Assembly (NCBI GenBank): GCA_017435745.1
Contig: JAFSEN010000089.1
Location: 1-36,012 of the forward strand
DNA length: 36,012 nucleotides
DNA from: Oscillospiraceae bacterium
GTDB lineage: Bacteria; Bacillota; Clostridia; Oscillospirales; Ruminococcaceae
Direction: 5' to 3'
Shown here: piece by piece, positions 1,592-30,771 of the stretch
How the letters are laid out: each line of letters starts with the position of its first letter
How positions within the stretch are numbered: the first letter of the stretch is position 1
Translations under genes and position numbers: made by a program
Notes under the pieces: generated by a model
The model's database searches: none
Told to the model about the DNA's origin: nothing
The model's input: only the letters and a program-made list of their open reading frames with translations

Positions 1592-4018
1592 TTACTGAAT
1601 GTTTACTGTTTTGGAATCGTGCTCAAGGCCGAGAATCGAAATTTCTTCTATAAAGCTTTTTTCCTTTACAGAGTTTTCTATCGGTCTTACAAGCGCAGTT
1701 TCAAGAACTGTTTCAACTTCTTTTGCCGGAACAAAGGTTATCGCGTTTTTTACAACCGGATCAATTTCTTCAAGGTCCGGAAGATTTTCTTCCGGAATAA
1801 GAACGGTTTTTACTCCCGCTCTGTAAGCGGCCATTGTTTTTTCACGAAGTCCGCCGATTGCAAGAACTCTTCCGCGAAGAGTAACTTCGCCGGTCATTGC
1901 AACATCCCTTCTTACCGGGATTCCGGAAAGAGCGGAAACAATAGCGGTTGTAAGAGTTACGCCCGCGGAAGGACCGTCCTTCGGAACTGCGCCTTCCGGA
2001 ACATGGATATGGATATCCTTTGTTTTATAAAAATCATGTTCGATTCCGTATTTTTCGGTGCAGGAACGCACATAGCTTATAGCGGTTCTTGCAGATTCCT
2101 TCATAACGTCGCCAAGATTGCCTGTCAGCTCAATTTTGCCGTTTCCGTCAAGAATTGCAACTTCAACCTGAAGCATGTCGCCCCCTACAGAAGTCCAGGC
2201 AAGACCGTTTACAAGGCCCACAGCGTCGCTGCTTTCAATAGTTTCCGGACGGAACTTTTTAACACCAAGAAAATCTGTTATGTTTGCATCGTTTACAACA
2301 ACTTTGGCTGTCTCTTCTCCGACAATTTTCTTTGCGGCTTTTCTGCAAAGGCTTCCGATAGTTCTTTCAAGGCTGCGGACTCCCGCTTCTCTTGTATAGG
2401 AATCGATAATAGCATAAATTGCATCATCGGCGATTCTGAACATTTTGGAATCAAGCCCATGCCGCTTCATTTCTTTTTTGACAAGGTGTTTTTTTGCAAT
2501 CTGGAATTTTTCTTCCCTTGTGTAAGAACCGAGTTCGATTATTTCCATTCTGTCATAAAGCGGACCGGGAATCGTGCTTGGGTCATTCGCCGTTGTGATG
2601 AAAAGAATATCGGAAAGATCGAACGGAAGCTCAATATAATGATCACGAAAAGCAACATTCTGTTCCGGGTCAAGAACTTCGAGCATTGCAGAAGCCGGGT
2701 CACCGCGGAAATCGCTTCCCATTTTATCTATCTCATCAAGAAGGATAAGGGCATTTTTGCTTCCTGCAAGCTTTACCGCGTTCATAATTCTTCCGGGCAT
2801 TGCGCCGATATAAGTTTTTCTGTGGCCGCGAATATCGGATTCATCCTTCATTCCGCCGAGAGAAATTCTTGTATATTTTCTTCCCATTGCGGCTGCAATA
2901 TCTTTTGCAATCGAGGTTTTACCAACGCCGGGAGGGCCAACAAGACAAATTATCTGGCCTTTGATATCCGGCTGGAGCTTTCTTACAGCAAGAAGTTCAA
3001 GAATGCGCTCTTTAACTTTTTCAAGGCCGTAATGGTTTTTATCCAGCTGTTTTTTTGCTTTTGCAATGTCGATTTTCTCTTCGGTTTTTATATTCCACGG
3101 AAGAGCGATGCAGGTATCAAGATATCCGCGGATAACGCTTGCTTCCTGGCTGTTGAAAGGCATTTTATAAAGTCTTGCAACTTCTTCAAGAAGTTTATCT
3201 TTAACTTCGCCTTCAACGCCGAGAGCTTCTATTTTCTTTTTGTATGCGTCGGCTTCGTCCTGAACATTTTCGCCTTCCCCAAGTTCTTCGGTAATTGCTT
3301 TAAGCTGTTCACGAAGGTAATATTCACGCTGGTTCTGGTCGATCTGCTCTTTTACCTTTTCATAAATATCTTTTTCAACGCCGAGGATGTTGTTTTCGTT
3401 TTCAAGAACACCCGCAAGGATTTCAAGACGTTTTACATAGTTGGATTCCTCAAGAATACGCTGTTTATCCTCAATATCAATATTGAGGTTTCCCGCAAGG
3501 AATTCTCCAAACTGGGCGGGATCATCCATTCCGAAAGCTTTTATTGCAAGTTCTTTCGGCATTTTGGGAACAAGATATGTATATTCATTGAAAAGATCTT
3601 TTACAGTACGCATGAGCGCATCGCAAAGAATAGAACGTTCCGGGCGAAGTTTTTTAAGCGGAAATTCCTGGGTATCCGCCACAAGAAAAGGTTCTTCCTC
3701 AACTAAATCAACAAGCTTTGCGCGGTATTTTCCTTCAACAAGAATTCTTGTTGTTCCGCCGTTATTTTTTATTACCTGGCGAACTTCGGCAACAACGCCG
3801 ACTTTATTAACATTATCGAGTTTAATCTCGTCTTCTTCAATATTAATTTGGGAAGCAAGAAAAACTTCTCTGTTCCCTTTCATTGCTTCTTCAAGAGCGG
3901 CAATGGATTTTTTTCTGCCGACATCAAAATGAAGGATCATGTTAGGAAAAAGAACGATCCCTCTCATGGCTATCATCGGCATCGTAATAATTTCTGCCGG
4001 TTGTTTCTTTTCGGTCAT
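1592..4018 (-). CDS. lon: ATP-dependent protease Lon (LonA type)
   Basis: An 808-residue cytosolic AAA+ serine protease that degrades misfolded and regulatory proteins, of full family length. The substrate-binding LAN domain spans about residues 9-210. The AAA+ module has Walker A GPPGVGKTS (361-369) and Walker B LILLDEID (424-431). The protease domain has the Ser-Lys dyad S684 (PKDGPSAG) and K727 (GGLREKTMAA). The 43-residue gap between them matches E. coli Lon S679/K722. ATG 4018 is preceded by a strong TCACCTCC-complementary ribosome site (GGAGGTGA, 4025-4032). No CIRCE or CtsR operator is seen before it. It lies between clpX and engB, so it is probably co-transcribed from the tig promoter past the hairpin at 4049-4080. 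Confidence 0.98.
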   Translation of the reverse strand: MTEKKQPAEIITMPMIAMRGIVLFPNMILHFDVGRKKSIAALEEAMKGNREVFLASQINIEEDEIKLDNVNKVGVVAEVRQVIKNNGGTTRILVEGKYRAKLVDLVEEEPFLVADTQEFPLKKLRPERSILCDALMRTVKDLFNEYTYLVPKMPKELAIKAFGMDDPAQFGEFLAGNLNIDIEDKQRILEESNYVKRLEILAGVLENENNILGVEKDIYEKVKEQIDQNQREYYLREQLKAITEELGEGENVQDEADAYKKKIEALGVEGEVKDKLLEEVARLYKMPFNSQEASVIRGYLDTCIALPWNIKTEEKIDIAKAKKQLDKNHYGLEKVKERILELLAVRKLQPDIKGQIICLVGPPGVGKTSIAKDIAAAMGRKYTRISLGGMKDESDIRGHRKTYIGAMPGRIMNAVKLAGSKNALILLDEIDKMGSDFRGDPASAMLEVLDPEQNVAFRDHYIELPFDLSDILFITTANDPSTIPGPLYDRMEIIELGSYTREEKFQIAKKHLVKKEMKRHGLDSKMFRIADDAIYAIIDSYTREAGVRSLERTIGSLCRKAAKKIVGEETAKVVVNDANITDFLGVKKFRPETIESSDAVGLVNGLAWTSVGGDMLQVEVAILDGNGKIELTGNLGDVMKESARTAISYVRSCTEKYGIEHDFYKTKDIHIHVPEGAVPKDGPSAGVTLTTAIVSALSGIPVRRDVAMTGEVTLRGRVLAIGGLREKTMAAYRAGVKTVLIPEENLPDLEEIDPVVKNAITFVPAKEVETVLETALVRPIENSVKEKSFIEEISILGLEHDSKTVNIQ

Positions 4019-4048
4019 ATTTTTTCACCTCCGGTATAAAAATATCGG

Positions 4049-4085
4049 AAGCGGCAGCCTCCCAAAAGCGACTGCCGCTTTTTTT
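4049..4085 (-). other. Intercistronic hairpin between clpX and lon
   Basis: A 9-bp inverted repeat (AAGCGGCAG, 4049-4057, with CTGCCGCTT, 4072-4080) sits between the clpX stop codon and the lon ribosome site. The T run (4079-4085) is on the + strand side, so on the coding (-) strand the hairpin follows an A run and has no U tract. This would make a poor terminator for clpX; it may instead be an RNA processing or stability element. Confidence 0.6.
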
Positions 4086-4090
4086 AATCA

Positions 4091-5404
4091 TTATTTTTCT
4101 GTTCTCGCTGCAATTTCAAGCGGAACATTCTTTTTGAGCGGGTTGCGCTCAATAACCGGGTCTGCGCTTTCTGTTACGCAGGCTTCTCCGATAACAACAG
4201 CTTCCGCGGTTTCATCAGAAGGAAGTTCGAACATAAGCTTTCCAAGGGTTTCTTCCATAATGGAGCGAAGACCTCTTGCCCCGGTTTTTCTGTCGATTGC
4301 TTTTTGAGCAATAGCTTCAAGAGCGCCTTCGGTAAACTGGAGGTTAACTCCGTCAAGGCTGAAAAGCTTCTGATACTGCTTTACAAGGCTGTTTTTCGGT
4401 TCGGTAAGGATTTTTACGAGAGCGGGTTTATCAAGACTTTCAAGAGCGGTGATAACCGGAAGACGACCCACCATTTCCGGAATTATTCCGAATTTGACAA
4501 GATCGTGGGGAGTTACCTTTTTAAGAAGATCTTTTGCTTCCTTGGATTTCTGGCTTATTACGTTTGCGCCAAATCCCATTGCGGAACTTGCGATACGTTT
4601 TTCGATAATAGGTTCGATTCCGTCAAAAGAACCGCCGCAGATGAACAAAATATTAGTTGTGTCGATTTGAATAAACTCTTGCTGAGGATGTTTTCTTCCT
4701 CCCTGGGGCGGAACGTTCGAAACAGTTCCTTCAAGCATTTTAAGAAGAGCCTGCTGAACGCCTTCGCCGCCTACATCTCTTGTTATGGAAGGATTTTCGG
4801 ATTTTCTGGTAATCTTATCTATTTCATCGACGTAGATAATTCCTCGCTGCGCAGCTTCAACGTCAAAATCCGCCGCCTGGATAAGGCGAAGAAGAACGTT
4901 TTCCGCATCTTCGCCGACATAACCTGCTTCGGTAATGGTGGTTGCATCTGCAATTGCAAATGGAACGCCGAGAACTCTTGCAAGGGTTTGGGCAAGAAGG
5001 GTTTTACCCGTACCTGTCGGCCCAAGAAGAAGTACGTTGCTCTTTTGGAGCTCAACATCTTCGGTATCCATTTTGCTGAGGATGCGTTTATAATGGTTAT
5101 AAACCGCAACGCAAAGGGTAGTTTTTGCTTCGTCCTGTCCGATAACGTATTTATCAAGAACTGCTTTGAGTTCTGCCGGCTTTAAAAGCGTTTTGGGATC
5201 AATAACAGGCTTGTTTTTATCTGCTTTTTTGCGTTTTGTCTTTTCAAGAGGATCCATCTCATCTTCGTCATAGAGGATGGAATTGCAAAGTTCAACGCAT
5301 TCGTCACAAATGCAAACGCCGGGTCCGGTTATAAGTTTATAAACCATATCCTGCGGTTTTCCGCAGAACGAACAGCGCATTTTGTGATCATCTTTATTGG
5401 CCAT
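4091..5404 (-). CDS. clpX: ATP-dependent Clp protease ATP-binding subunit ClpX
   Basis: The AAA+ unfoldase that feeds substrates to ClpP. The 437-residue protein starts with the zinc-binding domain (C11, C14, C33, C36; an extra cysteine at 31 stands where a tyrosine is common). It has Walker A GPTGTGKT (128-135), the pore loop GYVG (161-164), Walker B IIYVDEID, an RKH loop in GGRKHPQQ and sensor 2 in GARGLRS. All diagnostic features are intact. ATG 5404 has a GGAGGC ribosome site 8 bases upstream. It follows clpP with a 28-base gap, the usual clpP-clpX order, and transcription probably comes from upstream of tig or clpP. Confidence 0.98.
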
Positions 5405-5432
5405 AATTAAAAGCCTCCGAATTTATGCTTAA

Positions 5433-6017
5433 TTATTCTCTGTGGTCAAGTACGTTGTCAACAAGGCCGTATTCCATAGCCTGCTGTGCAGTCATGAAAT
5501 TATCTCTGTCGGTATCTCTTGTGATAACATCAAGAGGCTGACCGGTCTGTTCGGAAAGGATTTTATTAAGTCTTTCCTTAATTGCGATTATACGGTCGGC
5601 GTGGATCTTGATATCCGAAGCCTGACCTTGCATTCCGCCAAGAGGCTGGTGAATCATAATTTCGCTGTTGGGAAGTGCAAAACGTTTTCCTTTTGCACCG
5701 GAGCTTAAAAGGAATGCGCCCATGGAAGCAGCCATACCGATGCAGATGGTAGAAACATCGCATTTGATATAATTCATAGTGTCATAAATAGCCATTCCCG
5801 CTGTGATGGAACCGCCGGGGCTGTTGATATAGAGGCTTATGTCTTTATCCGGATCCTGTCCTTCGAGATAAAGAAGCTGTGCAACAACAAGGCTTGCTGT
5901 AACGTCGTTTACTTCGTCACAAAGCATTATGATTCTGTCATTAAGAAGACGAGAGAAAATATCGTAGGAACGCTCGCCTCTGTTTGTCTGTTCAACAACA
6001 ACTGGTACCAAACTCAT
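5433..6017 (-). CDS. clpP: ATP-dependent Clp protease proteolytic subunit ClpP
   Basis: The 194-residue serine peptidase that forms the double-ring chamber used by ClpX. The catalytic triad is visible: S98 in [10 protein letters not shown]123 in MIHQPLGG and D172 in DTDRDNFM, at the positions known for Bacillus ClpP. Length and sequence are standard. ATG 6017 follows AAAGGAG (6027-6033) with a 9-base gap. The 140 bases before it contain two hairpins and a small palindrome, so it may have its own control in addition to readthrough from tig. Confidence 0.98.
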
Positions 6018-6044
6018 CTGGTATCACTCCTTTCGGAATTTAAC

Positions 6045-6062
6045 GAAATTTGTCAAAATTTC
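6045..6062 (-). promoter_or_regulatory. Palindrome upstream of clpP, possible operator
   Basis: The perfect inverted repeat GAAATTT-GTCA-AAATTTC lies 10 bases before the clpP ribosome site. It overlaps a TTGACA-like hexamer on the - strand, but I find no convincing -10 at the right distance. It is not a CtsR box: only one TGTCAAA-like half is present. A role in clpP control is a guess from position and symmetry. Confidence 0.3.
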
Positions 6063-6079
6063 ATTATGATATAAAGGAC

Positions 6080-6146
6080 CTCCGGAAATAAATTCCGGAG
6101 ATCCCCCAATACAAAGATAATTATATTGCAGTTTCTCTGGAAACTG
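6080..6146 (-). other. Two hairpins between tig and clpP
   Basis: Two short perfect stems follow the tig stop codon: CAGTTTC/GAAACTG (6129-6135 with 6140-6146) and CTCCGGAA/TTCCGGAG (6080-6087 with 6093-6100). Neither is followed by a U run on the coding strand, so neither is a standard terminator. They may slow or process the tig-clpP transcript. Confidence 0.45.
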
Positions 6147-6157
6147 TTCCGCAATTA

Positions 6158-7687: not shown

Positions 7688-7730
7688 TATGTTGTTTCCT
7701 CCTGATAGATACATTTTCAGTAACTGTTAA

Positions 7731-7759
7731 AGTATATCATATAGCTAACATAAAATCAA
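7731..7759 (-). promoter_or_regulatory. Promoter of the tig-clpP-clpX-lon-engB block
   Basis: On the - strand, the -35 TTGATT (7754-7759) is separated by 17 bases from the -10 TATACT (7731-7736), which is preceded by an extended TGA. The predicted start lies about 35 bases before the tig start codon. The sequence around it is very AT-rich. Confidence 0.75.
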
Positions 7760-8478: not shown

Positions 8479-9971
8479 CAGCGATCACCTCCAACGGTGC
8501 TCAAAACAAATTCCGCCATTTCTTCCCTTTTACAGTTTTCCTTAAATCTTGGTTCCTTTTCCGAAAGTTCCGAAAGCTGTTTCGGCATTGGAAGACCGGA
8601 AAGCACCTCGATTTTCTTCGCAGCTTCAAAATCATCAGGTTCAATTTCACCGGAAATTGATTTGAGCACGGCCCTTGGAAATTTATAGGGGCTTGCTGTG
8701 GAAGCAATTATAGTTTTTCTGCAATCGCCGGTTTCGGCTTTGTATTTTTCATAAACTTCAACCGCAACGGCAGTATGGGTATCACAAAGATAGGAATATT
8801 CGTCAAAAAGCATTTTTATGCGGTTTTCCGCACCTTCATCGTCGGTAAATCCGGCTGCAAAAACTTCCTTTATTTTTGTAATGATATCTTCGGAAACAGA
8901 ATATTTTCCGTGCTCACGAAGGTCTTTCATAGCTTTCCCGACATATTCATCATCTTTTCCCGAAAGTTCAAAAATAAGTCTTTCAAGGTTGCTGGAAACA
9001 AGAATATCCATAGAAGGGGATTCGGTAAGATAAAAATCTCTGTTGGCATTATATTCACCCGTGCTCAAAAAATCCGTGAGCACGTTGTTTGCATTTGAAG
9101 CACAGATAAGCCTTCCGAAAGGAACGCCCATTTTTTTTGCGTAATATGCTGCAAGAATATTGCCGAAGTTTCCTGTTGGAACGGCCACATTCACAACATC
9201 CCCGTCTTCAATTTCTCCGTCCGCAACAAGATCCGCATAAGCTGAAATATAGTAAACCACCTGCGGAAGAAGTCTTCCGACGTTTATTGAGTTTGCGCTT
9301 GAAAAACTTTTTCCATTTTCGGCAAGTACCGCTCGGATATTTTCATCGGTAAAAATCATTTTTACTGCGGTCTGCGTATCATCAAAATTTCCCGCAACCC
9401 CGCAAACCCGGACATTTTTACCTTTTTGGGTCTGCATTTGGAGTTTTTGTATTTTTGAAACGCCGTCTTTAGGATAAAAAACAATTATTTCCGTTCCTTC
9501 AACGTCACAGAATCCTTCAAGAGCCGCTTTTCCGGTATCGCCCGAAGTTGCGGTCAAAATAACCGTTTTCTTCCCGTCGCCCGCTTTCTTTGCGGATTTT
9601 ACAAGGAAATGAGGAAGTATCTGGAGAGCCATATCTTTGAAAGCGCAGGTCGGACCATGCCAAAGTTCAAGCATATATATGTCTTCTCCGAGCTTAACAA
9701 TAGGAGCAGGCACTTCATCTTCAAAATTTTCGGTATATGCTTTTTCTGCGCAGCCAAGAAGTTCTTCTTCGGAAAAATCAGTCATGAATTTTGCAAAAAT
9801 CCGTTTTGCTCTTTCACAATATCCGAGTTTTGAAAGTTCGGAAATTTCTCCGTTTTCAAGAACCGGAATTTCAACCGGCACAAAAAGACCTCCGTCATCC
9901 GAAAGTCCTTTTATAATTGTTTCCGCCGAATCAAGACGAAGATTTTTGTTTCTTGTACTTTGAAATTTCAC
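8478..9971 (-). CDS. thrC: Threonine synthase
   Basis: A 497-residue PLP enzyme that converts O-phosphohomoserine to threonine, the last step of threonine biosynthesis. The N-terminal region (STRNK, SDDGGLFVP) is that of the long threonine synthase class. The PLP lysine is K112 in GPTCAFKD, and the phosphate-binding loop is in TATSGDTGKAA. The start is GTG 9971, with GAGGTGA 5-6 bases upstream overlapping the stop codon of the dipeptidase gene. No thrB or hom lies nearby, so the pathway is not clustered here. Six copies of the TGAGCAC heptamer lie in this gene or at its 3' end, the densest cluster in the window. Confidence 0.96.
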   Translation of the reverse strand: MKFQSTRNKNLRLDSAETIIKGLSDDGGLFVPVEIPVLENGEISELSKLGYCERAKRIFAKFMTDFSEEELLGCAEKAYTENFEDEVPAPIVKLGEDIYMLELWHGPTCAFKDMALQILPHFLVKSAKKAGDGKKTVILTATSGDTGKAALEGFCDVEGTEIIVFYPKDGVSKIQKLQMQTQKGKNVRVCGVAGNFDDTQTAVKMIFTDENIRAVLAENGKSFSSANSINVGRLLPQVVYYISAYADLVADGEIEDGDVVNVAVPTGNFGNILAAYYAKKMGVPFGRLICASNANNVLTDFLSTGEYNANRDFYLTESPSMDILVSSNLERLIFELSGKDDEYVGKAMKDLREHGKYSVSEDIITKIKEVFAAGFTDDEGAENRIKMLFDEYSYLCDTHTAVAVEVYEKYKAETGDCRKTIIASTASPYKFPRAVLKSISGEIEPDDFEAAKKIEVLSGLPMPKQLSELSEKEPRFKENCKREEMAEFVLSTVGGDR

Positions 9972-9980: not shown

Positions 9981-10907
9981 TCATATTCTTTTCGCAAAAA
10001 AGTTATATGCGTTTTTCCAAAATATTTTACCGGCAATTTCATTTCCGAATTCTTTTAAAATCAGTTCATATAAAGCCGGAATATTATTCATTTTTTCAAC
10101 ACCTTCGACAACTTCGCAGCCGTCATAATCGCTTCCCATACAAACGGAATTTTCTCCGCCGAGCAAAAGCATTCGTTCAATATGTTTTAAAATATCAAAA
10201 AGGCTTGCGTTTTCCTCATCGTTATTGAGGAACGCCCTATAAAAATTGATTCCTATAATTCCGCCGCGGCGAACAATTTCTTTGAAATGCTCATCTCCGA
10301 GATTTCTTCTGTGCGAACAAACTTCACGAAGGTTGCTGTGGCTTGCCGCAACGGAACAATCAACATTTCTGAGCACATCGTCAAGCCCCGAATCGGAAAG
10401 ATGAGAAACATCGATAACCATTCCGAGCCGCTGCATTCCTTTTATTACGTCGATTCCGAATGGTTTAAGACCGAAATTCTGGTCTGTCGAACCTTTACCG
10501 ATTTCGTTTTCACCATTCCATGTAAGAGTCATCATCCTGACCCCATCGTTATAAAGATTCTGCAGTCTTTCAATTTTTCCGCCGAGCACCCTTCCGCCTT
10601 CAACTGTCAGGATTGCGGCAGTTTTTCCCTTTTCGGTTATCATGTCGATATCTCCGGCTTTTTTAACTTGCTCAAAATACTGTGGAAACTTATTAAGCTG
10701 AGCATCAAAAAAATGTTTCGACATTGTGTAATAGTTGAAAGCATCTTCACCTGAAATAACGTCCGGACAAAAAATTGCGAAGCATTGGCAATGCCTGTTT
10801 ATTTTTTCGTTCCTCGGAAAAGAAATATCCAGATATCCGCAATCAAGATTACAGCTTTGATGAAGCGCGGTTGTTATTGTATCGCAATGAAGATCAAAAA
10901 AATCCAT
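9981..10907 (-). CDS. Membrane dipeptidase family (peptidase M19)
   Basis: A 308-residue zinc dipeptidase of the renal-dipeptidase family. Metal ligands can be placed: H7 and D9 (DLHCDT), E103 (VEGGRV), H169 (VIDVSHL) and H190 (AASHSNLR), plus the conserved R200/R201 region and GSDYDG near the end. No signal peptide or membrane segment is visible, so it is probably cytosolic and may act in peptide or D-amino-acid dipeptide turnover. A TTG-type upstream extension is possible, but ATG 10907 has GGAGG 6 bases before it. It overlaps the end of yraN by 14 bases and is followed by thrC after 9 bases, which points to one operon. Confidence 0.93.
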   Translation of the reverse strand: MDFFDLHCDTITTALHQSCNLDCGYLDISFPRNEKINRHCQCFAIFCPDVISGEDAFNYYTMSKHFFDAQLNKFPQYFEQVKKAGDIDMITEKGKTAAILTVEGGRVLGGKIERLQNLYNDGVRMMTLTWNGENEIGKGSTDQNFGLKPFGIDVIKGMQRLGMVIDVSHLSDSGLDDVLRNVDCSVAASHSNLREVCSHRRNLGDEHFKEIVRRGGIIGINFYRAFLNNDEENASLFDILKHIERMLLLGGENSVCMGSDYDGCEVVEGVEKMNNIPALYELILKEFGNEIAGKIFWKNAYNFFAKRI

Positions 10908-11294: not shown

Positions 11295-11897
11295 TCAGTG
11301 CATCTTTTTAAGAAATGTCAAACGATGTATATCGCTCGGGCCGAACTCTCTTAATTTTTCATAATGGAGCTTGGTTCCATATCCTTTATGCTTTGCAAAA
11401 CAATATTCAGGATGTTTTTTATCCATTTCAAGCATAAATCTGTCCCTGCTCACTTTTGCAAGAATAGAAGCCGCAGCAATACTTGCGGAAGTTGCGTCGC
11501 CCTTTATAACAAATTCCGCAGGAATCTCCATATTTTTCGGAACGCGGTTTCCGTCTATAAAGACATGTTCAGCTTTAATGCTCAAATTTTCAACAGCCGT
11601 TCTCATCGCAAGCATGGTTGCTTCAAGAATGTTGATTTCATCAATTGTTTTGTGGTCAACCGACTGAATTGAATAAGCGAGCGCGTGCTCAACGATTTCG
11701 TCAAAAAGCAGATCGCGCTTTTTTTCAGAAAGTTTTTTGCTGTCGTTAAGCCCTTCAATCTCATAATCTTCCGGAAGAATAACAGCTGCGGCAAAAACAG
11801 GACCAGCAAGAGGACCTCTTCCCGCTTCGTCAACGCCGCATATATATTTTATTCCAAGTTCCGCACGCTTTGCGTGCTCAAATTCATATAAGCTCAT
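11295..11897 (-). CDS. rnhB: Ribonuclease HII
   Basis: A 200-residue RNase HII that removes ribonucleotides and RNA primers from RNA:DNA hybrids. The active site is shown by D23 and E24 in GVDEAGRGPLAG, the NDSKKLSEKKR block, a later aspartate in VFIDGN, and ASILAKVSRD. A longer frame starts at 11948, but ATG 11897 has GGAGA at a proper distance and gives the usual family N-terminus. The start overlaps the last 14 bases of rbgA, so the two are coupled. Two TGAGCAC-type heptamers fall in this gene. Confidence 0.95.
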   Translation of the reverse strand: MSLYEFEHAKRAELGIKYICGVDEAGRGPLAGPVFAAAVILPEDYEIEGLNDSKKLSEKKRDLLFDEIVEHALAYSIQSVDHKTIDEINILEATMLAMRTAVENLSIKAEHVFIDGNRVPKNMEIPAEFVIKGDATSASIAAASILAKVSRDRFMLEMDKKHPEYCFAKHKGYGTKLHYEKLREFGPSDIHRLTFLKKMH

Positions 11898-12756
11898 TTG
11901 GTCTCTCCAAAGTGATGCGTCCAATTTTTCCTCCCCGGAATTCATCAAGAATCATTGCGGCGGCTCTTTCGGTATCGATCTCTCCGCCGGAAATTTTCAT
12001 TCCGCGTTTTGCTCCGATAAGTTCAAGAAGTTCAAACGGTTCAATTTCCGCTGTTTCTTCGTCGGTAAGTTTATATCTTTCGCAAAGCTGTTTATGTGCT
12101 TCGTGGTTAAGAACATCCGCAAGGCGAGCCGCAAGGGTTTCGATATCAAGAATATCGTCTTTTACCGCGCCGGTAAAAGCAAGGTGTTCGCCGACGGTTT
12201 TATCCTCGAATTTAGGCCAAAGAACGCCGGGCATATCAAGCATATCGATTCCTTTATCAAGAGTCACCCATTGTTTTCCTCTTGTAACACCGGGTCGGTC
12301 TTCAACTTTTGCGCGTTTGCCTCCGGCAATGCGGTTGATGAAAGAAGATTTTCCGACGTTAGGAATACCGACTATCATCATGCGGATGGGTTTGCCTTCC
12401 ATACCTTTTCTTGCGCGCTTTTCAAGTTCATTTTTAAGAACATCGCGGACAAGCGAAGCAAGTTTGTTAAGGCCTCTTCCGCTTCTGCAATCGGTTGCAA
12501 GAGCGCGGATTCCTTTGGATTTATAGTGTTCTATCCATTCCTGAGTAATTGCTTCATCTGCCATATCGCATTTGTTGAGCACAACAACTCTTGGTTTTCC
12601 GCCTACAAGGCTTTTCATTTCCGGGTTGCGGCTGGAAAAAGGCACCCTTGAATCGGTTATTTCAACAACAACATCAACAAGAGGAAGATTTTCTTTCATT
12701 AAACGGCGGGTTTTGGCCATATGTCCGGGGAACCACTGGATATCAACCTGTTCCAT
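11884..12756 (-). CDS. rbgA: Ribosome biogenesis GTPase RbgA (YlqF)
   Basis: A 290-residue circularly permuted GTPase needed for a late step of 50S assembly. The motif order is permuted: G4 NKCD (61-64) comes before G1 GIPNVGKSS (130-138) and G3 DMPG (174-177). The N-terminal QWFPGHMAKTRR is characteristic of YlqF. The frame is open to 12870, but the added residues are unlike the family; ATG 12756 is the likely start, although its AAAGGAG is about 14 bases away, longer than usual. It follows rplS, the standard clostridial order, and is separated from it by a terminator. Confidence 0.95.
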   Translation of the reverse strand: MEQVDIQWFPGHMAKTRRLMKENLPLVDVVVEITDSRVPFSSRNPEMKSLVGGKPRVVVLNKCDMADEAITQEWIEHYKSKGIRALATDCRSGRGLNKLASLVRDVLKNELEKRARKGMEGKPIRMMIVGIPNVGKSSFINRIAGGKRAKVEDRPGVTRGKQWVTLDKGIDMLDMPGVLWPKFEDKTVGEHLAFTGAVKDDILDIETLAARLADVLNHEAHKQLCERYKLTDEETAEIEPFELLELIGAKRGMKISGGEIDTERAAAMILDEFRGGKIGRITLERPNELI

Positions 12757-14087: not shown

Positions 14088-15915
14088 AACAGGCGCCTCC
14101 TTTCAGGCAATTTGCTCCGCAGCCGGAACATTTCTGGCGGCAGTTCGGAGTTGTTATATCCTCATGCGCTTTTTTGTTTTCGTTGATGATGAACTTCTTC
14201 GTAACACCGTAATCGAAAATATCCCAAGGCATGACCTCGTCATAGCTTCTGGTTCTGTTGGCATAAAATTCCGGTTTTACGCCGCATTCTTCAAAAGATT
14301 CCATCCAAACGTCGAATTTAAAGTGTTCGTCCCAGCTGTCAAGGTTGCAGCCTTTACGCCATGCAGTTTCGATAACTTTGCCAATCTTTCTGTCACCTCT
14401 TGCAAGAACAGCTTCGAGATAGGAAGTTTCCGCATCATGCCAGTCAAGATTTATCTTTCTGCTGTGAACAGCGGAGCGCATTACTTCCTGTTTTCTGTGG
14501 AGTTCTTCCCTTGTATCCTGCGGTTCAAACTGGAACGGAGTAAAAGGTTTCGGAACAAAGCTCGCAACGCTGCATGTAACCTGCACTCCCTTGCCTTTCG
14601 GTTTGTTCGGAAGACTGTAGAACATATTTACAACGCGCTGGGCAGTTTCGACGATTCCTCTTACGTCGTCGTCGGTTTCCGTCGGAAGACCGATCATAAA
14701 ATAAAGTTTTACAGCGGTATATCCGCCTTCAAAAGCGGTTTTTGCCGTATTCATAATTTCTTCTTCGGTAACATTTTTGTTGATAACGTCGCGCATTCTC
14801 TGGGTTCCTGCTTCCGGCGCAAAAGTAAGCCCGCTTTTGCGAACTTTGCTGATTTTCTGAAGAAGGCTTTCGCTGAAATTATCCACACGAAGAGACGGAA
14901 CAGCAAGGTTGACGTGTTCTTTCGGAGTCCACTCAAGAAGATCATCAAGAAGCGGTTCAAGTTCGCTGTAATCGCTGGTGCTCAGCGAAGTGAGCGAAAG
15001 TTCCTCATAACCGGTACTGTCGCAAAGGTTGTGAGCATCCCTGCAAAGAGTTTCAAATCTTTTTTCACGAACGGGTCGGTAAATAAATCCCGCCTGGCAG
15101 AAACGGCATCCGCGAATACAGCCGCGCATAAGTTCAAGCTGGCTTCTGTCGTGAACAATATCGATAAACGGAACGATAAATTTATCCGGATAAGGAACTT
15201 TATCAAGATCCTTTATGATGCGTTTTGTAATAGGAAGAGTTGCGGTTTCTTTCGGAACAAATTCTTTCACCGTTCCGTCTTCGTTATAAACAACGTCGAT
15301 AAGAGAAGGAACGTAAACTCCGGGAATCTTTGCCGCTTCGCAAAGATACTGTTTTTTGCTCCAGCCTTCTTTTTTTGCGGTTTTATAAAGACCGACAACC
15401 TCCGGAAGAACCTCTTCGCCTTCTCCGGGCATGAAAAGATCGATAAAATCTGCAATAGGTTCCGGGTTGCAGGAGCAAGGGCCGCCGGCAACAACAAGAT
15501 TCTTAAGTTCGTGTCTGTCCTCTGCCCTGACCGGAACACCGGCAAGATCCAGCATATTTAAGATTCCGGTATAGGAAAGCTCATACTGAAGGGTGAAACC
15601 TATAATATCAAAATCCCCGACAGAATCGCGGCTTTCAAGAGCAAAAAGCGGATAGCCGTTTTCTCGGAGAATTTTTTCCATATCCACATCCGGGGCAAAA
15701 ACTCTTTCACACCAGACTTCCGGGTCGCTGTTAAGAAGACTATAAAGAATTTTCATTCCAAGATGGCTCATTCCCACTTCATAAAGATCCGGGAAGCAGA
15801 ATGCAAATCTTACTGAAACATTCTCTTTATTTTTAACAACGCTGTTAAGTTCTCCGCCGCAGTATCTTGCGGGTTTTTGAACAAGGTTCAGGATTTTTTC
15901 AGGAATTGCAGGCAA
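14080..15915 (-). CDS. B12-binding-type radical SAM protein, TIGR03960 family
   Basis: A 611-residue radical SAM protein. The N-terminal part (to about 200) is like the cobalamin-binding domain of this class (GMSHLGMKILYSLLN, DFDIIGFTLQYELS). The [4Fe-4S] cluster motif CxxxCxxC is C266, C270, C273 in MRGCIRGCRFC. The last 20 residues are cysteine-rich (CRQKCSGCGANC) and may bind a second cluster. The substrate is unknown. The start is TTG 15915 with AGGAGG 7 bases before it. Its promoter diverges from that of the XRE gene. In many Clostridia this pair precedes rng-rplU-rpmA; here it precedes rplS. Confidence 0.9.
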   Translation of the reverse strand: MPAIPEKILNLVQKPARYCGGELNSVVKNKENVSVRFAFCFPDLYEVGMSHLGMKILYSLLNSDPEVWCERVFAPDVDMEKILRENGYPLFALESRDSVGDFDIIGFTLQYELSYTGILNMLDLAGVPVRAEDRHELKNLVVAGGPCSCNPEPIADFIDLFMPGEGEEVLPEVVGLYKTAKKEGWSKKQYLCEAAKIPGVYVPSLIDVVYNEDGTVKEFVPKETATLPITKRIIKDLDKVPYPDKFIVPFIDIVHDRSQLELMRGCIRGCRFCQAGFIYRPVREKRFETLCRDAHNLCDSTGYEELSLTSLSTSDYSELEPLLDDLLEWTPKEHVNLAVPSLRVDNFSESLLQKISKVRKSGLTFAPEAGTQRMRDVINKNVTEEEIMNTAKTAFEGGYTAVKLYFMIGLPTETDDDVRGIVETAQRVVNMFYSLPNKPKGKGVQVTCSVASFVPKPFTPFQFEPQDTREELHRKQEVMRSAVHSRKINLDWHDAETSYLEAVLARGDRKIGKVIETAWRKGCNLDSWDEHFKFDVWMESFEECGVKPEFYANRTRSYDEVMPWDIFDYGVTKKFIINENKKAHEDITTPNCRQKCSGCGANCLKGGACFE

Positions 15916-16790: not shown

Positions 16791-17346
16791 TCGTGCAAAG
16801 AACCATATAAATTAACGCGATTAGAATAAAATAATTTCCTGTAAATGCTATGGAAACAGCAAGAAAAACCGAAACCGCAGCGCAAAATAAAAAAGAAATT
16901 ATTTTAAATATCTTTTCCTCTTTCTGAGGTATAAACTCAAAGAGAACCGTTTTTAAAACGGCTCCGCCGTCGGTTGAAGAAAGAGGCATTGCGGTAAAAA
17001 TTCCAATAACAAGATTTATATAGGAAAAAATTTTATTTCCTGCCGCAAAAAACAGCAAACTTAAAATAAAATTTACCGCAAAACCCGAAACGAGCACAAA
17101 ACATTTTTTCTCTGTGCTCAGATTTTCCGGAAGAGAAATATGTATTCCGAAAACATCGGTTTTTATGCTAATCGGATAAACTTTTTGGCTTAACAATGCC
17201 AAAAGATGCCCAAGTTCATGCAAAATTGAAAATAAAACCGCAAAACCCGAAATTCCGGTTTTGTCCAAAAGCAAAACGGCCGTGAGCACCATAAAAAACA
17301 TCGGCGAAACAGAAACTTTTGTTTTGAGCACGGTGATTTCTATCAT
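16783..17346 (-). CDS. SpoIVFB-like M50 intramembrane metalloprotease
   Basis: A 187-residue, almost wholly hydrophobic protein of the site-2 protease family. The zinc motif HELGH is at residues 43-47 and the second-metal aspartate motif is STDGG (D126). In Bacillus, SpoIVFB cuts pro-sigma-K during sporulation, and its HELGH lies at about the same place. The gene overlaps the preceding M23-domain gene by four bases (ATGA), the same order as spoIVFA-spoIVFB. The assignment is by motif, topology and neighbour; the true substrate is unknown. It lacks the C-terminal CBS domain found in some relatives. Three TGAGCAC heptamers lie in it. Confidence 0.83.
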   Translation of the reverse strand: MIEITVLKTKVSVSPMFFMVLTAVLLLDKTGISGFAVLFSILHELGHLLALLSQKVYPISIKTDVFGIHISLPENLSTEKKCFVLVSGFAVNFILSLLFFAAGNKIFSYINLVIGIFTAMPLSSTDGGAVLKTVLFEFIPQKEEKIFKIISFLFCAAVSVFLAVSIAFTGNYFILIALIYMVLCTMK

Positions 17347-18097: not shown

Positions 18098-21000
18098 TTA
18101 TCCAAGGAAACTTAATCCGCCTTCGGAAGATTCATCCCCGTTTTCTTCACCTTCGGGACCGGAGATTGTTCCTTCTTCCCCGTTTTCGTCTTCCGGTACG
18201 CTTTCGGTATATTCCGGAGGCTCATAGCTGCTTTCTCCGCTTGTGGATTGGGTTCCGTAATTATAACTTCCGTTTTTGCCAACTCCGTAAAGATAGCTGG
18301 AAATGGAATCTGCGATCGCATCTGCAATTTCGCGCTGATAACTGCTCTTTATGAGTTTATAATAATCGGATTCGTTACTTACAAAACCAAGTTCACCGAG
18401 AACGGAAGGATATTCCTGGATTCTGGTAACATAATAGCGTCCTATCATATCTCCTCTGTCTTTTGTTCCAAGCGCAGAAGCAACGTTTGCAGAAAAATAT
18501 GCGGCAAGATTCTGTGAAAATCTTGTGAAATAGAAACATTCTGTGCCGTGTCCGCTGCTGGAAGTTGCGGAGTTGCAATGTACGCTTACAAAAACAAGAG
18601 GATCTCTTCCGGAAGCATAAACTACGCGGTCCTCAAGGCTTGGACGCTGGTTTACGGTGTCCATCATATAAACGGTCGCTCCGCGGCTTTGGAGTTCATC
18701 TCTAAGGTATTTTCCAACCGCAAGGTTTATTTCATACTCACCGTAATCCGAAAGGAATCCGAGAGCACCGACTCCAAGCGCACTGTGACCGACGTCAACA
18801 ACTATCGGAACTCCGGAAAGACTTGAACTTCCGGTCGGATTGTTAAACCGGAAAACAAGATCTCCATCTTCATAATATGCAGTGTATCCAAGGAAGCCGT
18901 ATTTTGTACTGAGCTCAAGAACAAGTTTTGAACTGTTCCATTTTGCAGAGCTGAAAAGCGGAGTACAATTAAGGCTGAGATTTCCCGGAACTTCATCTGT
19001 ATAGAAAAATTCTATTGTAAACTCATTCGGTGAATACTTAGCGACATACGCAACCTGCTGTTTCATTTCAAAAGTTACATAAGTGTATCTCTTGTTTGCA
19101 GAAACTGTCATATTTGTTATCTTATTTCCGCCAAGTTCGCCGGAAGCCGGACTTACGTCTTTTGTATAAACCCTTTGTCCGGATTGGAGGTTATAATAGG
19201 TAAATGTTTTTTCGCCTTCAACATAGGTTATTTCATCACCGACAACATAATCTCTTGTTCCTTTTGCAAGAGGATAGCAATCGTAATCCGAAAGGTCATT
19301 AAGAACATTTGTGGGGAAAGTTTCTGCAGATTTTGCAACAACTTCAACAAGACCTCCGGCTTTTGCTTTTGCAGAAACAGTTACATAAGCGGCTTCTTTT
19401 GTTTCGGTATTGCCTTCCCAGGTACCCTTGACAATAATATTGCCTATTCCCTGTTCTTCAGAGCCTGAAGGAGGCGCAGAAAGCATTCCTGTATATGTAA
19501 CGTATGTAGAATCCTGTTCTTCCTCTGTGGAATCGTCCGCCTCTGTACTTTGTTTAAGCGTTATGGTATTGGAACCGAGAGTTGCCGTTACAACCGAACC
19601 TTCATAAGCAAGAGCGGTTACGGTGATGCTCATTCCGCCGCCTACTGTTACGTTTCCAAGCGGAGTAACTTCTTTAAGAACCATTATATTTCTTGTGATG
19701 TTATATGTAACAGTTTTTTCTTTATGTTCAAATTTAAAAGTATTTAAGCCCGGAGAGAGTTCCATCGTAAGCATAAATGCGCCGTTGGAGTCCCTTTTAA
19801 CTTTGGTTCCGTTCATCGTAAGATCGAAATTAACGTCCGAAGCACCCGCAAAAACCGCAACTGTATCATAAGTTGAATAGGTCAGCTTTCCGGGACGGGT
19901 AAGCTCGAGCTGCGTAAGAAGAAAACTCGGGTCGATATTTTCAGTAAGATACTGAACAAGGGCATCTGTGGATTGTTTTGGGTTTTTCTGAAGCGCAGCA
20001 AGGGAATCAAAAATACTGCCCTTAAATCCGCTTAGTTTTTCCGCTATTATAACCTGGTCGGAAAGTTCCGAAGGATCGTCCCAGCCTTTTTCATCGGTGC
20101 ATGCTTTTGTTGCATACTGGAAAATATAAAGCGGAATTTTTTCGGCAACTACACCATTCCACCAATTCGTATAATCTTCAAATTTTGCAGATTTGTTTCC
20201 GGTAGCATATCCACTCTTAACCGCAACAAAATCCGCAAGGCCTTCTTCAACGAATTTTTTTGTATTGGCAAATCCGTTTACAAAACTTTCGTAACCTGCC
20301 TCGGTTGCGCTTCCTTCTTCAATGGTTGTGCTGTTCGCCCAAACTGCATCAACGGCAAGCCCAACAGCTATTGCGGGATTTTCCTTTTTTACAGCTTTAT
20401 AAGCTGCCGAAACAGCTGCTTCGGTGTTGGAACGAAGATAATTTTCAAAACCCATTCCGCTGCCGTATTTAGTATAATCCGAATATGCTTTTCCGTCGGA
20501 TTCAACGGTGTATGTATTGAGCATAATTCCGTCGATATCATAAGCGCAGACAGCCTTTGCGTTTGCACTTATAACGGAAAGCTGTTTGCTGTCGAGCACA
20601 TACGAAGTTTCAACTTTTCCGTTGGAATTGATTTTGAGCACGTCAAAAACGACATAAACATAAAGATCCATGCTCTTTGCTTTTTCGGAAGCATATTTGA
20701 GCATATCGATGCTCGTTTTTGCCTGTGGCATATCAACAGAGCTGTAAAGTACGGTTTCGCCGAAAGAAGTTTCGAGAAAAACAGTATTTGCAGAAAGTTT
20801 TTTTGCTTCTTCAAGAGCAGTATCGATGGATTTTTGTATATCTTCCGTGGAAGCGCCTTCTTCGGTGTAATAATCAACACCGGCTTTAAGGGTTATTGCC
20901 ATCATTCTTTCGGGCGCATGGTAAACAATCGGACCTTCAACGATATTTTCAATTTCCGGTTCTTCCTGAACATCCGGAGTTTCCGGCTCCGTCGGATTTA

Positions 21001-26400: not shown

Positions 26401-27780
26401 TTAAGTAAGTTCCGGCTCTTCGTTATGAACTGTCATTCCGTGGCGGAGCCAGTCGCCTTTAAGATATTTTACAAAATAGATAATCGCTTTAACAAGTTCA
26501 TCGCTGCAAACAATTGTCATAACAAGAAGCGGATCCAGCTTAAACCAAAGTCCGCAAATTGCGCCGAGCACGCCTTTCATAAAAACTGCGGAAAAAACAT
26601 CGATTTTTGCAATGAATCCTGTATCTCCTCCGGCACGAAGAACCCCTGCACCGAGGTTCCAGCTTGTCCCATAGCAAACGTCAATATATGCGCAAACCAA
26701 AAGCATGCTTAAAATATAATTTGCCGTTGTTTCCGAACAAACTATAAAACCGGGAGCAAAGGGTCTTATAACCATAATAACGGCTGCCATAAAAATTCCT
26801 ACACCAAGGCCGCCGATAACAAAAAACTTGCTCCATTTTTTTGCTTCGCCGTCTTTTCCCGCCCCTATCATGTTTCCGAGAAGGATGAGCGAAGCGTTTG
26901 AAAATCCGCACATTGCAACGGTTGAAAGATCGAGAATTACGAGCACAAGGCTGTATGCCGCAAGGAATTCCTTGCTGTATTGTCCGAGTATTGCGGATTG
27001 AACGGTCATTCCGAAACCCCAGATAAATTCGCTGAAAAAAACCGGAATTCCGAATTTTAAGAACGAAGGAATATACTGCGCGGTTTTTGCAAAAATATAG
27101 TGCATTCTGAAGTTAAGTCTGTGCTCAAATTTATGCATATAGGTGAGCACCAAAACAATTTCCAAAGTTTTGCTTATTGCTGTTGCAATTGCCGCACCGA
27201 CAACTTCAAGCCTCGGGGCTCCGAGATTTCCGTAGATAAGCACCCAGTTGAGCACAAGATTTGTAAGGCATGAGCAAGTATATACCGCAACGGAAATTTT
27301 AACGTCGTGGATTGCCCTAAGATTTGAAAGGAAAGTTGTTGAAACCGCCGGGAAAACATAGAACCAGCCCATAACACGCAGATATTCAACGCCATAGGCT
27401 ATTACTTCCGGGTCGCTTGCAAAAACCCTCATAACAATTTCCGGAATAGTAAGCGTTACAGCCGAAAGCAAAAGCGCGGCAATAACATTAACGCGCATCG
27501 CAAGACCGATCATATCTCGAATCGGATCAATTTTTCCCTGTCCCCAATATCTTGCGGTTATAACAACCGTTCCCATGCTTATTCCCCAAACAAACATGTT
27601 GAAAAAAACATATAAAGAGTTTACCTGGTTTATTGCTCCAAGCTGAGCTTCACCGACAGACCCTATCATAATAGTATCCAGCATATTGACCAGAACGGAA
27701 ACAAAGTTCTGGGCCGCAACCGGAATTCCGATTTTAAACATCTGTCTGACAATTTCTTTTCTTGTGTACATTTCTTCCAT
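26401..27780 (-). CDS. MATE family efflux transporter
   Basis: About 459 residues with twelve predicted membrane helices in two homologous halves, typical of multidrug and toxic compound extrusion transporters driven by Na+ or H+. The N-terminal half has the family pattern PVAAQNFVSVLVNMLDTIMIG. The transported substrate cannot be predicted. The frame is open from 27798; I favour ATG 27780, which starts one base after the whiA stop codon, because none of the three candidate ATGs (27798, 27780, 27771) has a strong ribosome site and re-initiation after whiA is likely. Three TGAGCAC heptamers and two related hexamers fall here. Confidence 0.9.
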   Translation of the reverse strand: MEEMYTRKEIVRQMFKIGIPVAAQNFVSVLVNMLDTIMIGSVGEAQLGAINQVNSLYVFFNMFVWGISMGTVVITARYWGQGKIDPIRDMIGLAMRVNVIAALLLSAVTLTIPEIVMRVFASDPEVIAYGVEYLRVMGWFYVFPAVSTTFLSNLRAIHDVKISVAVYTCSCLTNLVLNWVLIYGNLGAPRLEVVGAAIATAISKTLEIVLVLTYMHKFEHRLNFRMHYIFAKTAQYIPSFLKFGIPVFFSEFIWGFGMTVQSAILGQYSKEFLAAYSLVLVILDLSTVAMCGFSNASLILLGNMIGAGKDGEAKKWSKFFVIGGLGVGIFMAAVIMVIRPFAPGFIVCSETTANYILSMLLVCAYIDVCYGTSWNLGAGVLRAGGDTGFIAKIDVFSAVFMKGVLGAICGLWFKLDPLLVMTIVCSDELVKAIIYFVKYLKGDWLRHGMTVHNEEPELT

Positions 27781-27781
27781 T

Positions 27782-28699
27782 TTACTCAATTTTTCCATTT
27801 CTTAAAGCATTTGCAATTTCGCTGATTTTTTTGAGCCTGTGATTCACCCCGGAACGCGAAAGCGGAGGTTCAACGGATTCGCAAAGCTCGCGCAGCGACA
27901 TTTCGGGATTTTCAAGCCGGAGCTTTGCAACCTGCAAAAGCTCGTCCGAAAGGATGCTTTCGTCCTTGTTTTCGAAGATATATTTTATATCTTCAACCTG
28001 CTGCATCGAAGCATTAAGGGTTTTGTCCATATTTGCGTTGTCGCAGTTCATTCTGCGATTCACCCTGTTTTTTATATCTTTTTCTATTTTTATGTTCATC
28101 ATTTCAAGCGAAGACATCATTGCCCCGATATAAGTGATAATATCTTCGATATTTTCGCTTTCCTTATAATAAACTATATAGGAACCCCGGCGAACGGTGC
28201 TTTTTGGCTGCGGAAGAACTTCGCCGATAAGCGTTGAAAGATCCCGGCAAAGATTCATATAGCTTACTCCGAACTCAAGATGATACTCTTTATTCGGATC
28301 AGTAAGGCTTCCGCAAACAAGATAAGCACCCCGGAGAAAATACGGAACATCTTCCTCATTTTCAATATTGGCGCGGTTTATGCGAAGGCTCGGTTCCTTA
28401 GGCATATGATAAAAAGTTTCGAGTATTTTTCTTCTTTCGGAAGCTTTTTCGATGCTTACTTTATAAAGCGTTCCTCTTGCTCTTTCGTGGAAAATAATTT
28501 TTGCCGAAATTCCGCAATGGGTTGCAAGTGCTTCGGCAAAAAGTCTTGCCGTAGGTTCATGTACCACAGCAAAACTTATTTCATCAGCAGTAAATTTATG
28601 TGAAAAAAGCAGAAATCCATAAAGAAGAGCATGCAAAGCACTTTCCTGTTCTGGAACATCTTTGCAAAGTTCATCTTTCAAATTGGCCGCAAAGGACAT
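27782..28699 (-). CDS. whiA: DNA-binding protein WhiA
   Basis: A 305-residue WhiA protein. The N-terminal half has the degenerate LAGLIDADG fold signature (YFLRGAYLVCGSLTDPNKEYHLEF), the middle has the NRRMNCDNANMDK block, and the C-terminus has a helix-turn-helix (MSLRELCE...SRSGVNHRLKKISEIA). In Actinobacteria it controls sporulation septation; in Firmicutes it affects cell division and chromosome segregation. ATG 28699 is preceded by AAAGGAG at a long distance (about 14 bases). It follows murB closely. In many Firmicutes rapZ and yvcK stand directly before whiA; neither is here. Confidence 0.96.
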   Translation of the reverse strand: MSFAANLKDELCKDVPEQESALHALLYGFLLFSHKFTADEISFAVVHEPTARLFAEALATHCGISAKIIFHERARGTLYKVSIEKASERRKILETFYHMPKEPSLRINRANIENEEDVPYFLRGAYLVCGSLTDPNKEYHLEFGVSYMNLCRDLSTLIGEVLPQPKSTVRRGSYIVYYKESENIEDIITYIGAMMSSLEMMNIKIEKDIKNRVNRRMNCDNANMDKTLNASMQQVEDIKYIFENKDESILSDELLQVAKLRLENPEMSLRELCESVEPPLSRSGVNHRLKKISEIANALRNGKIE

Positions 28700-30618: not shown

Positions 30619-30658
30619 AAAAAAACGCCTCCTATTATTTATATAATTAACCAAGTAT

Positions 30659-30687
30659 ATTATAATATAAAACAGACAATTTTTCAA
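30659..30687 (-). promoter_or_regulatory. Promoter of the hprK operon
   Basis: On the - strand, -35 TTGAAA (30682-30687), a 17-base spacer and a perfect -10 TATAAT (30659-30664). The message would start about 35 bases before hprK. Confidence 0.85.
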
Positions 30688-30734
30688 CAATTCTACTCAT
30701 TATTAATATCTTTTTTTATTGTTATTTCGGCACA

Positions 30735-30771
30735 AAAAAAGCCGTGCTCAAAATTTGAGCACGGCTTTTTT
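30735..30771. terminator. Terminator of the surface-protein gene, built from two inverted TGAGCAC copies
   Basis: A long perfect hairpin with GCCGTGCTCAAA facing TTTGAGCACGGC, flanked by A and T runs on both sides, 10 bases after the stop codon of the 30781-35298 gene. Its arms contain the repeated heptamer at 30744-30750 and 30756-30762. Confidence 0.92.

Follow-up and report, generated by a model that had tools for sequence, protein, structure and literature searches.

Helix-phased arrays of the heptamer TGAGCAC in a clostridial genus: possible boxes for a putative multivalent chromosome-binding protein

The protein SeqA binds pairs of GATC sites, which are short and dispersed, cooperatively at whole helical turns and on one face of the helix. 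The sites of Noc, SlmA and MatP, which serve nucleoid organisation, are specific palindromes scattered through the coding and non-coding chromosome at tens per chromosome. Chi and the KOPS/SRS motifs (FtsK-orienting polar sequences and SpoIIIE recognition sequences) are short, over-represented chromosomal words that are strand-biased and act singly, and operators of the SinR or ComK type are made of 7-bp or A/T boxes at promoters, read by a multimer on one helix face with variable whole-turn spacing. To our knowledge, the known chromosome-organising motifs are either few per genome or strand-biased. The DNA uptake sequences (DUS) of Neisseriaceae and the uptake signal sequences (USS) of Pasteurellaceae form hundreds of short, clade-specific copies on both strands, also within genes, with a consensus of about 11 bp and with inverted pairs that form terminator hairpins. 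The subject of this report is the heptamer TGAGCAC in a 36,012-nt stretch (the window) of contig JAFSEN010000089.1 from an Oscillospiraceae bacterium (assembly GCA_017435745.1; Ruminococcaceae in GTDB). A first-pass annotation of the window had likened it to uptake sequences, with methylation or chromosome organisation as the alternative. The signal shares all the listed properties of DUS and USS, but it differs from them in forming helix-phased arrays in any orientation, in that most of its carriers lack a pilus ATPase, and in its Clostridia host.

TGAGCAC occurs 20 times in the window, ten times on each strand, whereas 100 dinucleotide-preserving shuffles gave a mean of 1.92 and a maximum of 6 copies. 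It is the most over-represented heptamer there under an order-2 Markov model, and its core, GAGCAC, is found 32 times against 8.2 expected, compared with 19 copies of AAGCAC/GTGCTT (raw counts). All 20 core positions in the first-pass annotation, and their 10:10 orientation, were recovered. The suspicion of a genome-wide, strand-symmetric signal was also borne out: the source genome (G000; 1,818,117 bases in 103 contigs, 90% complete) has 766 copies, 367 forward and 399 reverse, whereas the reversed word occurs 9 and 3 times on the two strands. In a 320,875-base sample of this genome, TGAGCAC is the top heptamer (159 copies, where an order-3 Markov model predicts 11.3), and the word, its parts or its extensions rank first at every k from 6 to 10. 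The consensus of the copies extends to TTTGAGCACGG, and under the same model TTGAGCACG occurs 69 times against 0.9 expected and TTTGAGCACG 48 times against 0.35. The flanking preferences reported earlier hold within the window, where T precedes 13 of the 20 copies and A none, and G follows 11 and T none, but the absence of a preceding A is a small-sample effect, since A precedes 26% of 265 copies in the source genome. The related boxes TGAGCAT, CGAGCAC and CGAGCAT, which together with TGAGCAC make up YGAGCAY, were missed by the first-pass annotation, as was the helical phasing of the copies.

The copies are clustered: the first sample has 50 adjacent pairs no more than 60 bp apart, where chance would give about 4.4. 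The distances between copies peak near 11, 21, 31–32, 42–43, 52–53, 63, 75, 85, 95 and 106 bp in the source genome and two members of its genus, G010 and G004. The phasing was first noticed in the pair list of the first sample and was then tested on new sequence. When the three genomes were pooled, the 233 distinct pairs at most 120 bp apart gave a best period of 10.55 bp with a power of 78.0. The maximum power was 10.4 in 500 jitters by multiples of 3, which preserve codon phase, and in 500 uniform nulls it was 14.6 when periods of 4–20 bp were scanned and 10.9 for periods of 9–13 bp; 74 other words reached at most 8.0, though with fewer pairs each (median 38). Phasing is present in each genome alone (power 41.7, 24.6 and 19.7 in G000, G010 and G004, respectively). 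It is also present in genic pairs (45.9), intergenic pairs (31.8), pairs at distances not divisible by 3 (22.4), pairs at least 60 bp apart (19.3), direct pairs without duplicated flanks (50.2) and a held-out batch of the source genome (15.5), none of these values being reached in 2000 nulls. TGAGCAT, CGAGCAC and CGAGCAT are likewise in phase with TGAGCAC. Spacing by whole helical turns, as in nucleoid-protein sites that are read cooperatively, is thus a property of this word.

Direct and inverted pairs are about equally frequent in the genus sample (147 and 125). Direct pairs peak at whole turns, whereas the peaks are shifted up by about 1 bp for convergent pairs and down by about 0.7 bp for divergent ones, which suggests that the centre of contact lies slightly 3' of the centre of the heptamer. 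Chaining the boxes of the source-genome sample at 65 bp left 259 single and gave 70 groups of two, 39 of three and 7 of four, against random expectations of 480, 29.1, 1.7 and 0.1. From the same-face spacing, kept over one to ten turns and in any orientation, we infer that the duplex is read by units sharing a scaffold, a surface or a filament. TGAGCAC would then be the core of a recognition box, YGAGCAY, with TTTGAGCACGG as its best context, read as double-stranded DNA. Many boxes stand alone, and the clustered ones form arrays, mostly of two or three boxes at whole-turn spacing and in any orientation, so that the boxes of one array face the same side of the helix. The putative reader would carry several DNA-binding units on its common scaffold, surface or filament and would bind arrays cooperatively.

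Codon use does not account for the word. Genes called with our own open reading frame (ORF) scorer hold 108 copies, against about 14 after synonymous shuffling, or 37 and 71 by orientation against 6.6 and 7.3, codon pairs as such being outside the shuffling model. Among the places where the protein sequence permits it, TGAGCAC is used in 12 of 57, 23 of 110, 58 of 267, 6 of 43 and 6 of 76, according to frame and strand; this amounts to 21% at offsets 1 and 2 of the coding strand, 22% at offset 0 of the reverse strand, and 14% and 8% at the other reverse offsets. The reversed word, taken as a control, is used in 4 of 640 permitted places. It can hardly be credited that codon or codon-pair bias, the periodicity of amphipathic helices or tandem duplication makes both the word and its spacing. 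Val-Leu (GTG CTC) is indeed the commonest genic reading (59 of 108), and periodicities of 10–11 bp can arise from protein helices, but the phasing of intergenic pairs, of distances not divisible by 3 and of direct pairs without duplicated flanks speaks against such an origin, as do the synonymous shuffles. Accordingly, the synonymous shuffles, the codon-phase jitters and the unduplicated flanks led us to reject codon bias, periodicity of the codon frame and tandem duplication as causes.

Use of the word at permitted places depends on position relative to other copies. TGAGCAC fills 45 of 76, 80 of 118 and 76 of 105 in-phase permitted places in G000, G010 and G004 (59–72%), against 39 of 475, 52 of 410 and 38 of 282 isolated ones (8–14%) and 8 of 45, 12 of 53 and 11 of 35 out-of-phase ones. 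Gene calls for this comparison covered 58% of the sample in G000 and about 81% in G010 and G004, with the same picture. Between orthologs of 81–83% nucleotide identity, 36 of 58, 25 of 34 and 16 of 28 copies are identical, whereas words of permuted composition are identical at 33%, 39% and 36% of orthologous sites. Genic copies are kept in orthologs in 80 of 130 cases when in phase and in 24 of 54 when isolated (genome pairs counted in both directions). Selection or drive acts on the arrays. The same four-box array, with gaps of 54, 41 and 11 bp, was seen in G000 (stretch L017, 1413–1525) and in G004 (L149, 1164–1276), at apparently orthologous positions.

The orientation of copies lying between co-directional genes shows no gene-strand bias (15 in the same orientation, 14 in the opposite one), and a strand-biased motif was rejected on this result. 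It bears on the proposal that TGAGCAC is a Chi-like motif for AddAB, or another polarity motif of recombination or segregation such as KOPS/SRS. This proposal draws on the shortness and over-representation of the word and on the 14 copies held by addB and addA in G004, but it is very unlikely, given the missing strand bias and the similar synonymous use on the coding strand and at reverse offset 0 (though use is lower at the other reverse offsets), and helix phasing and inverted pairs would not be expected of such a motif. No other excess in the G004 sample is as significant as that of the addB and addA copies (L132, 443–7262).

An inverted TGAGCAC pair, its members 12 bp apart, lies at 30744..30762 in the window, 18 bp past the stop codon of the gene for a leucine-rich-repeat (LRR) protein (30781–35298, minus strand). 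It is predicted to fold as a terminator-like hairpin with A/U tails (−25.1 kcal/mol, z −6.84), and a simple terminator scan did not flag it. The three genomes hold 58 adjacent inverted pairs within 25 bp, of which 41 are not inside a called gene; 29 of these 41 have an adjoining TTTT run and a stop codon within 60 bp. The terminator use proposed in the first-pass annotation is thus supported by prediction, and pairs in inverted orientation that follow a stop codon have probably been recruited for termination. TGAGCAC might then be a terminator or other 3'-end element and nothing else, copied elsewhere by chance, and its density in the source genome is indeed highest between convergent genes (2.03 per kb, against 0.37 in genes). 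However, G010 does not show this excess (0.41 against 0.46 per kb), in G004 it is slight (0.88 against 0.69), and the copies are not confined to the 3' ends of genes, as intrinsic terminator repeats are: 172 of the 265 source-genome copies are inside called genes (467 in this sample), spread along their whole length and with a strong synonymous bias, and 93 are outside. An origin as a terminator alone is highly improbable, and was set aside on the genic, phased copies.

The signal is specific to a clade. The genus of the source genome (g1) comprises 15 genomes here, G000–G014, nearly all of the genomes compared being drafts. Each of the 14 congeners searched is rich in TGAGCAC (367–1273 copies), in line with the conservation that the first-pass annotation had proposed to look for, whereas 46 other relatives, with genomes of 1.1–3.8 Mb, have 16–677 copies; on rounded genome sizes, this corresponds to at least 367 per Mb within the genus and to about 285 at most elsewhere. 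The sampled congeners range from 42% to 61% GC, yet TGAGCAC heads the heptamer ranking of all three for which one was made (G000, G004 and G011). By DnaE, the nearest named relative (92% identity) is an Oscillospiraceae metagenome-assembled genome from water-buffalo cecum. Over the order, TTGAGCACG occurs 255 times in the source genome and at most 101 times in 393 other genomes drawn, a draw that held no congener. Over the class, the source genome has 23 TGAGCAC pairs at 20–22 bp, and no other of 391 genomes has more than one. In the 15 whole genomes of the genus, direct GAGCAY pairs number 36–105 per genome at 20–22 bp (972 in total) against 0–17 at 15–17 bp (119 in total). No comparable word or phasing was found in 57–100 kb from each of seven family members (G018, G034, G025, G033, G027, G020 and G015). 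In G011, a second over-represented word, AGCGTGTAG/CTACACGCT, was noticed, with 15 copies against 0.3 expected in 106 kb (L197, L236–L240).

Outside the genus, only G090, which belongs to another family, has more than 20 direct GAGCAY pairs at 20–22 bp (48, against 12 at 15–17 bp) among the 150 genomes counted. Within its family, of which 81 genomes were searched, it stands alone (38 pairs, the others having 0–2), and five other members of its own genus that were searched have 0–1 such pairs. Its arrays contain five to seven CTGAGCACGG boxes, most gaps being of 20–22 bp; they are found at L181 9593–9705, L182 9975–10067, L183 9428–9530, L184 3581–3672 and L186 9443–9515. These stretches were chosen around hits, and word counts for G090 therefore come from a non-random sample. 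Several of the arrays overlap ORFs of a mechanical list, their position relative to gene ends being ambiguous, and the ten flanking genes scanned were unrelated housekeeping genes with no common theme. Because nearly the same box is found in one whole Clostridia genus and in G090, the putative reader may have moved horizontally.

The resemblance to uptake sequences was weighed against the machinery of these genomes. If TGAGCAC were an uptake sequence as in Neisseria or Haemophilus, a surface receptor would prefer box-bearing DNA, and uptake followed by recombination would multiply the boxes by molecular drive. Hundreds of copies on both strands, the share outside called genes and the terminator hairpins would fit, and a multivalent receptor would hold phased arrays more firmly. 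The com and pil genes that the first-pass annotation suggested looking for were found in part. All 15 genus genomes have ComEC, but so do 45 of the 46 other relatives examined. A ComEA-like helix-hairpin-helix match was obtained in 12 of the 15, and in three of these it exceeds the curated cut-off. Yet 14 of the 15 have no convincing pilus assembly ATPase. In the source genome (90% complete) there was no ComEA match, the only HHH_3 match lying in a 439-aa frame.

Most known DNA-uptake systems need the pilus assembly ATPase (PF00437). It is convincing in 1 of the 15 genus genomes, G011. PilT-like proteins occur in G011 and G010 and a PilT-like fragment in G009, and the other 12 genomes have weak PF00437 matches only (best E 1.4e-8). 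Nine of the 15 pass the Pfam cut-off, six of them weakly (E 1.4e-8 to 2.2e-6) in frames of 290–323 aa which, judging from their length, we take to be other ATPases such as SpoIIIAA. The same search works elsewhere: of 20 further genera of the family, seven gave the assembly ATPase at E < 1e-120. G090, which has the arrays and is listed as 100% complete, yielded neither an assembly ATPase nor a ComEA-size HHH_3 protein, whereas the ATPase was found in its congener G119. As far as the available portions of the sources extend, the density, strand symmetry and terminator pairs of DUS and USS match the present signal (PMC1852404; PMC12616744), helix-phased arrays are not described for them in these portions, and Neisseriaceae and Pasteurellaceae, two families of Proteobacteria, are stated to be the only ones to discriminate DNA in this way (PMC12616744). 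The signal was not found described in the literature on uptake, competence, phasing, the word itself or Oscillospiraceae motifs, of which subscription papers and preprints were thinly covered. Since the pilus motor, a defining feature that was tested, is convincing in so few carriers, the signal is not classed among uptake sequences. The uptake reading of the first-pass annotation, whose genome-wide, strand-symmetric signal and predicted terminators stand, is not supported and appears unlikely.

Transfer could also proceed without a pilus. In that case the arrays would be bound on entry, or by the proteins with which a gene transfer agent (GTA) or transducing phage packages DNA, marked fragments would be favoured, and drive would increase the number of boxes. 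The same-face spacing could come from a DNA-binding ring of several subunits, ComEC is kept without the pilus ATPase, and entry of GTA DNA through ComEC is known elsewhere. The mean gap between TGAGCAC clusters is 1.9–2.9 kb, and 14 of 19 listed G090 clusters are same-strand, in stretches chosen with a same-strand pattern. At family level, the available portion of one source reports GTA-like packaging of fragments of 4.6–8.9 kb as prominent in Ruminococcaceae and Oscillospiraceae (PMC12946183), the latter being the NCBI label of the nearest relative. However, the near equality of direct and inverted pairs in the genus is unlike what a ring of fixed polarity would be expected to give, and among viral contigs that carry the paired pattern (16 and 20 stretches) no array-rich virus was seen, these contigs looking like background or duplications. 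This form of transfer is a serious alternative, though it seems improbable.

Because the signal exists without a known uptake machine, the best reading is that the boxes are read by a multivalent protein assembly bound to the chromosome, a tentative view to which we give slightly less than an even chance. The chromosome-organisation motif named as an alternative in the first-pass annotation fits better than uptake, the arrays being found without a pilus motor. A chromosomal role would be the likeliest because the boxes are found in varied core genes, extend over the full length of genes instead of sitting at promoters, and have been kept in genomes that lack a pilus; the reader could be nucleoid-associated or anchor the chromosome, and would mark the bacterium's own DNA and hold it. 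The nearest analogues in function would be proteins such as SeqA that bind several sites on one face, with cooperative same-face reading at whole turns as the presumed common feature, although the box here is longer, non-palindromic and strongly favoured at synonymous sites. Compared with the sites of Noc, SlmA and MatP, there are hundreds of boxes, none palindromic and many in phased arrays; unlike Chi and KOPS/SRS, the boxes show no gene-strand bias and are often arrayed; and unlike SinR- or ComK-type operators, they occur throughout genes and after stop codons. It is an even question, on sequence data, whether they constitute an undescribed class of chromosomal element, namely orientation-free, helix-locked arrays of a non-palindromic box, placed at synonymous positions of genes all over the chromosome. 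Their putative multivalent reader would mark the DNA of the cell, whether to fold it, to anchor it or to have it recognised as self during gene transfer.

Several observations weigh against a chromosome-bound reader. Many boxes are single (259 of the 375 YGAGCAY groups in the source-genome sample, and 76 of 152 TGAGCAC clusters), clusters are irregularly spaced along contigs (coefficient of variation 0.99–1.12), so that a simple spacing role was not seen, and TGAGCAC counts per gene are over-dispersed. Genic pairs of opposite orientation are phased more weakly (power 10.8, reached by 3 of 2000 nulls), and the inverted pairs of G004 alone are not significantly phased (power 4.0). The weakest contrast in the genus is that of G011 (61% GC), with 36 whole-genome pairs at 20–22 bp against 12 at 15–17 bp, and five strict pairs in 106 kb of this genome show no phasing. 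In comparison with stretch L021, one of four orthologous copies is identical, although three of four are still a box. The density, the 35% non-genic share and the terminator pairs resemble those of uptake sequences. Finally, a comparison of 303 kb of G090 with the genus sample gave 117 matching ORFs, and no candidate reader stood out among the ten scanned from the upper part of the list, which were ordinary proteins (gyrase B, ProRS, AzlCD, TetR, DtxR-like, XRE and other common families). Site-rich genes (three of ten proteins in one scan and 20 others, ten of these 20 without a match at the threshold) showed no theme, addB and addA standing out in G004. A helix-locked word at hundreds of sites, many of them synonymous, indicates that in these gut bacteria the chromosome is read, as duplex DNA and at very many places, by some factor, and this reader, once found, would open up a new chromosome-organising system or a new system of self-DNA recognition in Clostridia.

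The window contains 40 YGAGCAY boxes in all, those located here being the arrays, the pairs and the single TGAGCAC copies, with isolated variant boxes omitted. The largest array has five boxes on mixed strands (20518..20715) and lies inside the long gene of a CwlD-like amidase (ORF 18098–21286, minus strand): TGAGCAT at 20518 (+), CGAGCAC at 20593 (+), TGAGCAC at 20635 (+), TGAGCAT at 20698 (+) and CGAGCAT at 20709 (−), separated by 75, 42, 63 and 11 bp, or 7.11, 3.98, 5.97 and 1.04 helical turns. Three TGAGCAC copies (−, +, +) at 27121..27255, in the gene of a MATE transporter (ORF 26401–27798, minus strand), have gaps of 23 and 105 bp (2.18 and 9.95 turns). A direct TGAGCAC pair on the plus strand (17283..17331) is spaced by 42 bp (3.98 turns), and CGAGCAC (+) and TGAGCAC (−) at 17091..17120 by 23 bp (2.18 turns). 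In the gene of a B12-binding radical SAM protein (14080–15915, minus strand), TGAGCAC (−) and TGAGCAT (+) at 14978..15038 are 54 bp apart (5.12 turns).

Wider pairs are formed by TGAGCAT (10287, −) and TGAGCAC (10370, +) at 10287..10376 (83 bp, 7.87 turns), by CGAGCAC (10583) and TGAGCAT (10699) on the plus strand at 10583..10705 (116 bp, 11.0 turns), and by TGAGCAT (11578) and TGAGCAC (11685) on the minus strand at 11578..11691 (107 bp, 10.14 turns). The thrC gene (8478–9971, minus strand) holds an inverted TGAGCAC pair at 9061..9083 that is out of phase (16 bp, 1.52 turns), together with copies at 8497..8503 (−), 8663..8669 (+) and 8910..8916 (−). Single copies are found at 11874..11880 (−), at 12576..12582 (+) and, within lon (1592–4018, minus strand), at 1619..1625 (−).

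Depletion of the word in mobile elements was considered and set aside as evidence. A 20-kb stretch of G004, L134, contains a mobile element (2555–11471, contig C15) with a large serine recombinase, a P4-type primase and HsdM, and has 4 copies against 13.2 expected (p 0.003, uncorrected), the lowest of 81 G004 stretches; this was a post hoc observation, not significant across the 81. The lowest stretch of the source genome, L165 (1 copy against 5.4 expected), consists of ordinary genes. The LRR protein of the window (30781–35298, minus strand) has 1505 aa and is a surface protein resembling the HupY/LrrG adhesins, below the cut-off of that family. Weaker and possibly codon-driven signals in the source-genome sample are the palindrome TTCCGGAA (204 copies against 124 expected) and CTTCCGGAA (135 against 60), and the window also has short words, ACGGCCACA and CCGCAGACG among them, that are repeated locally.

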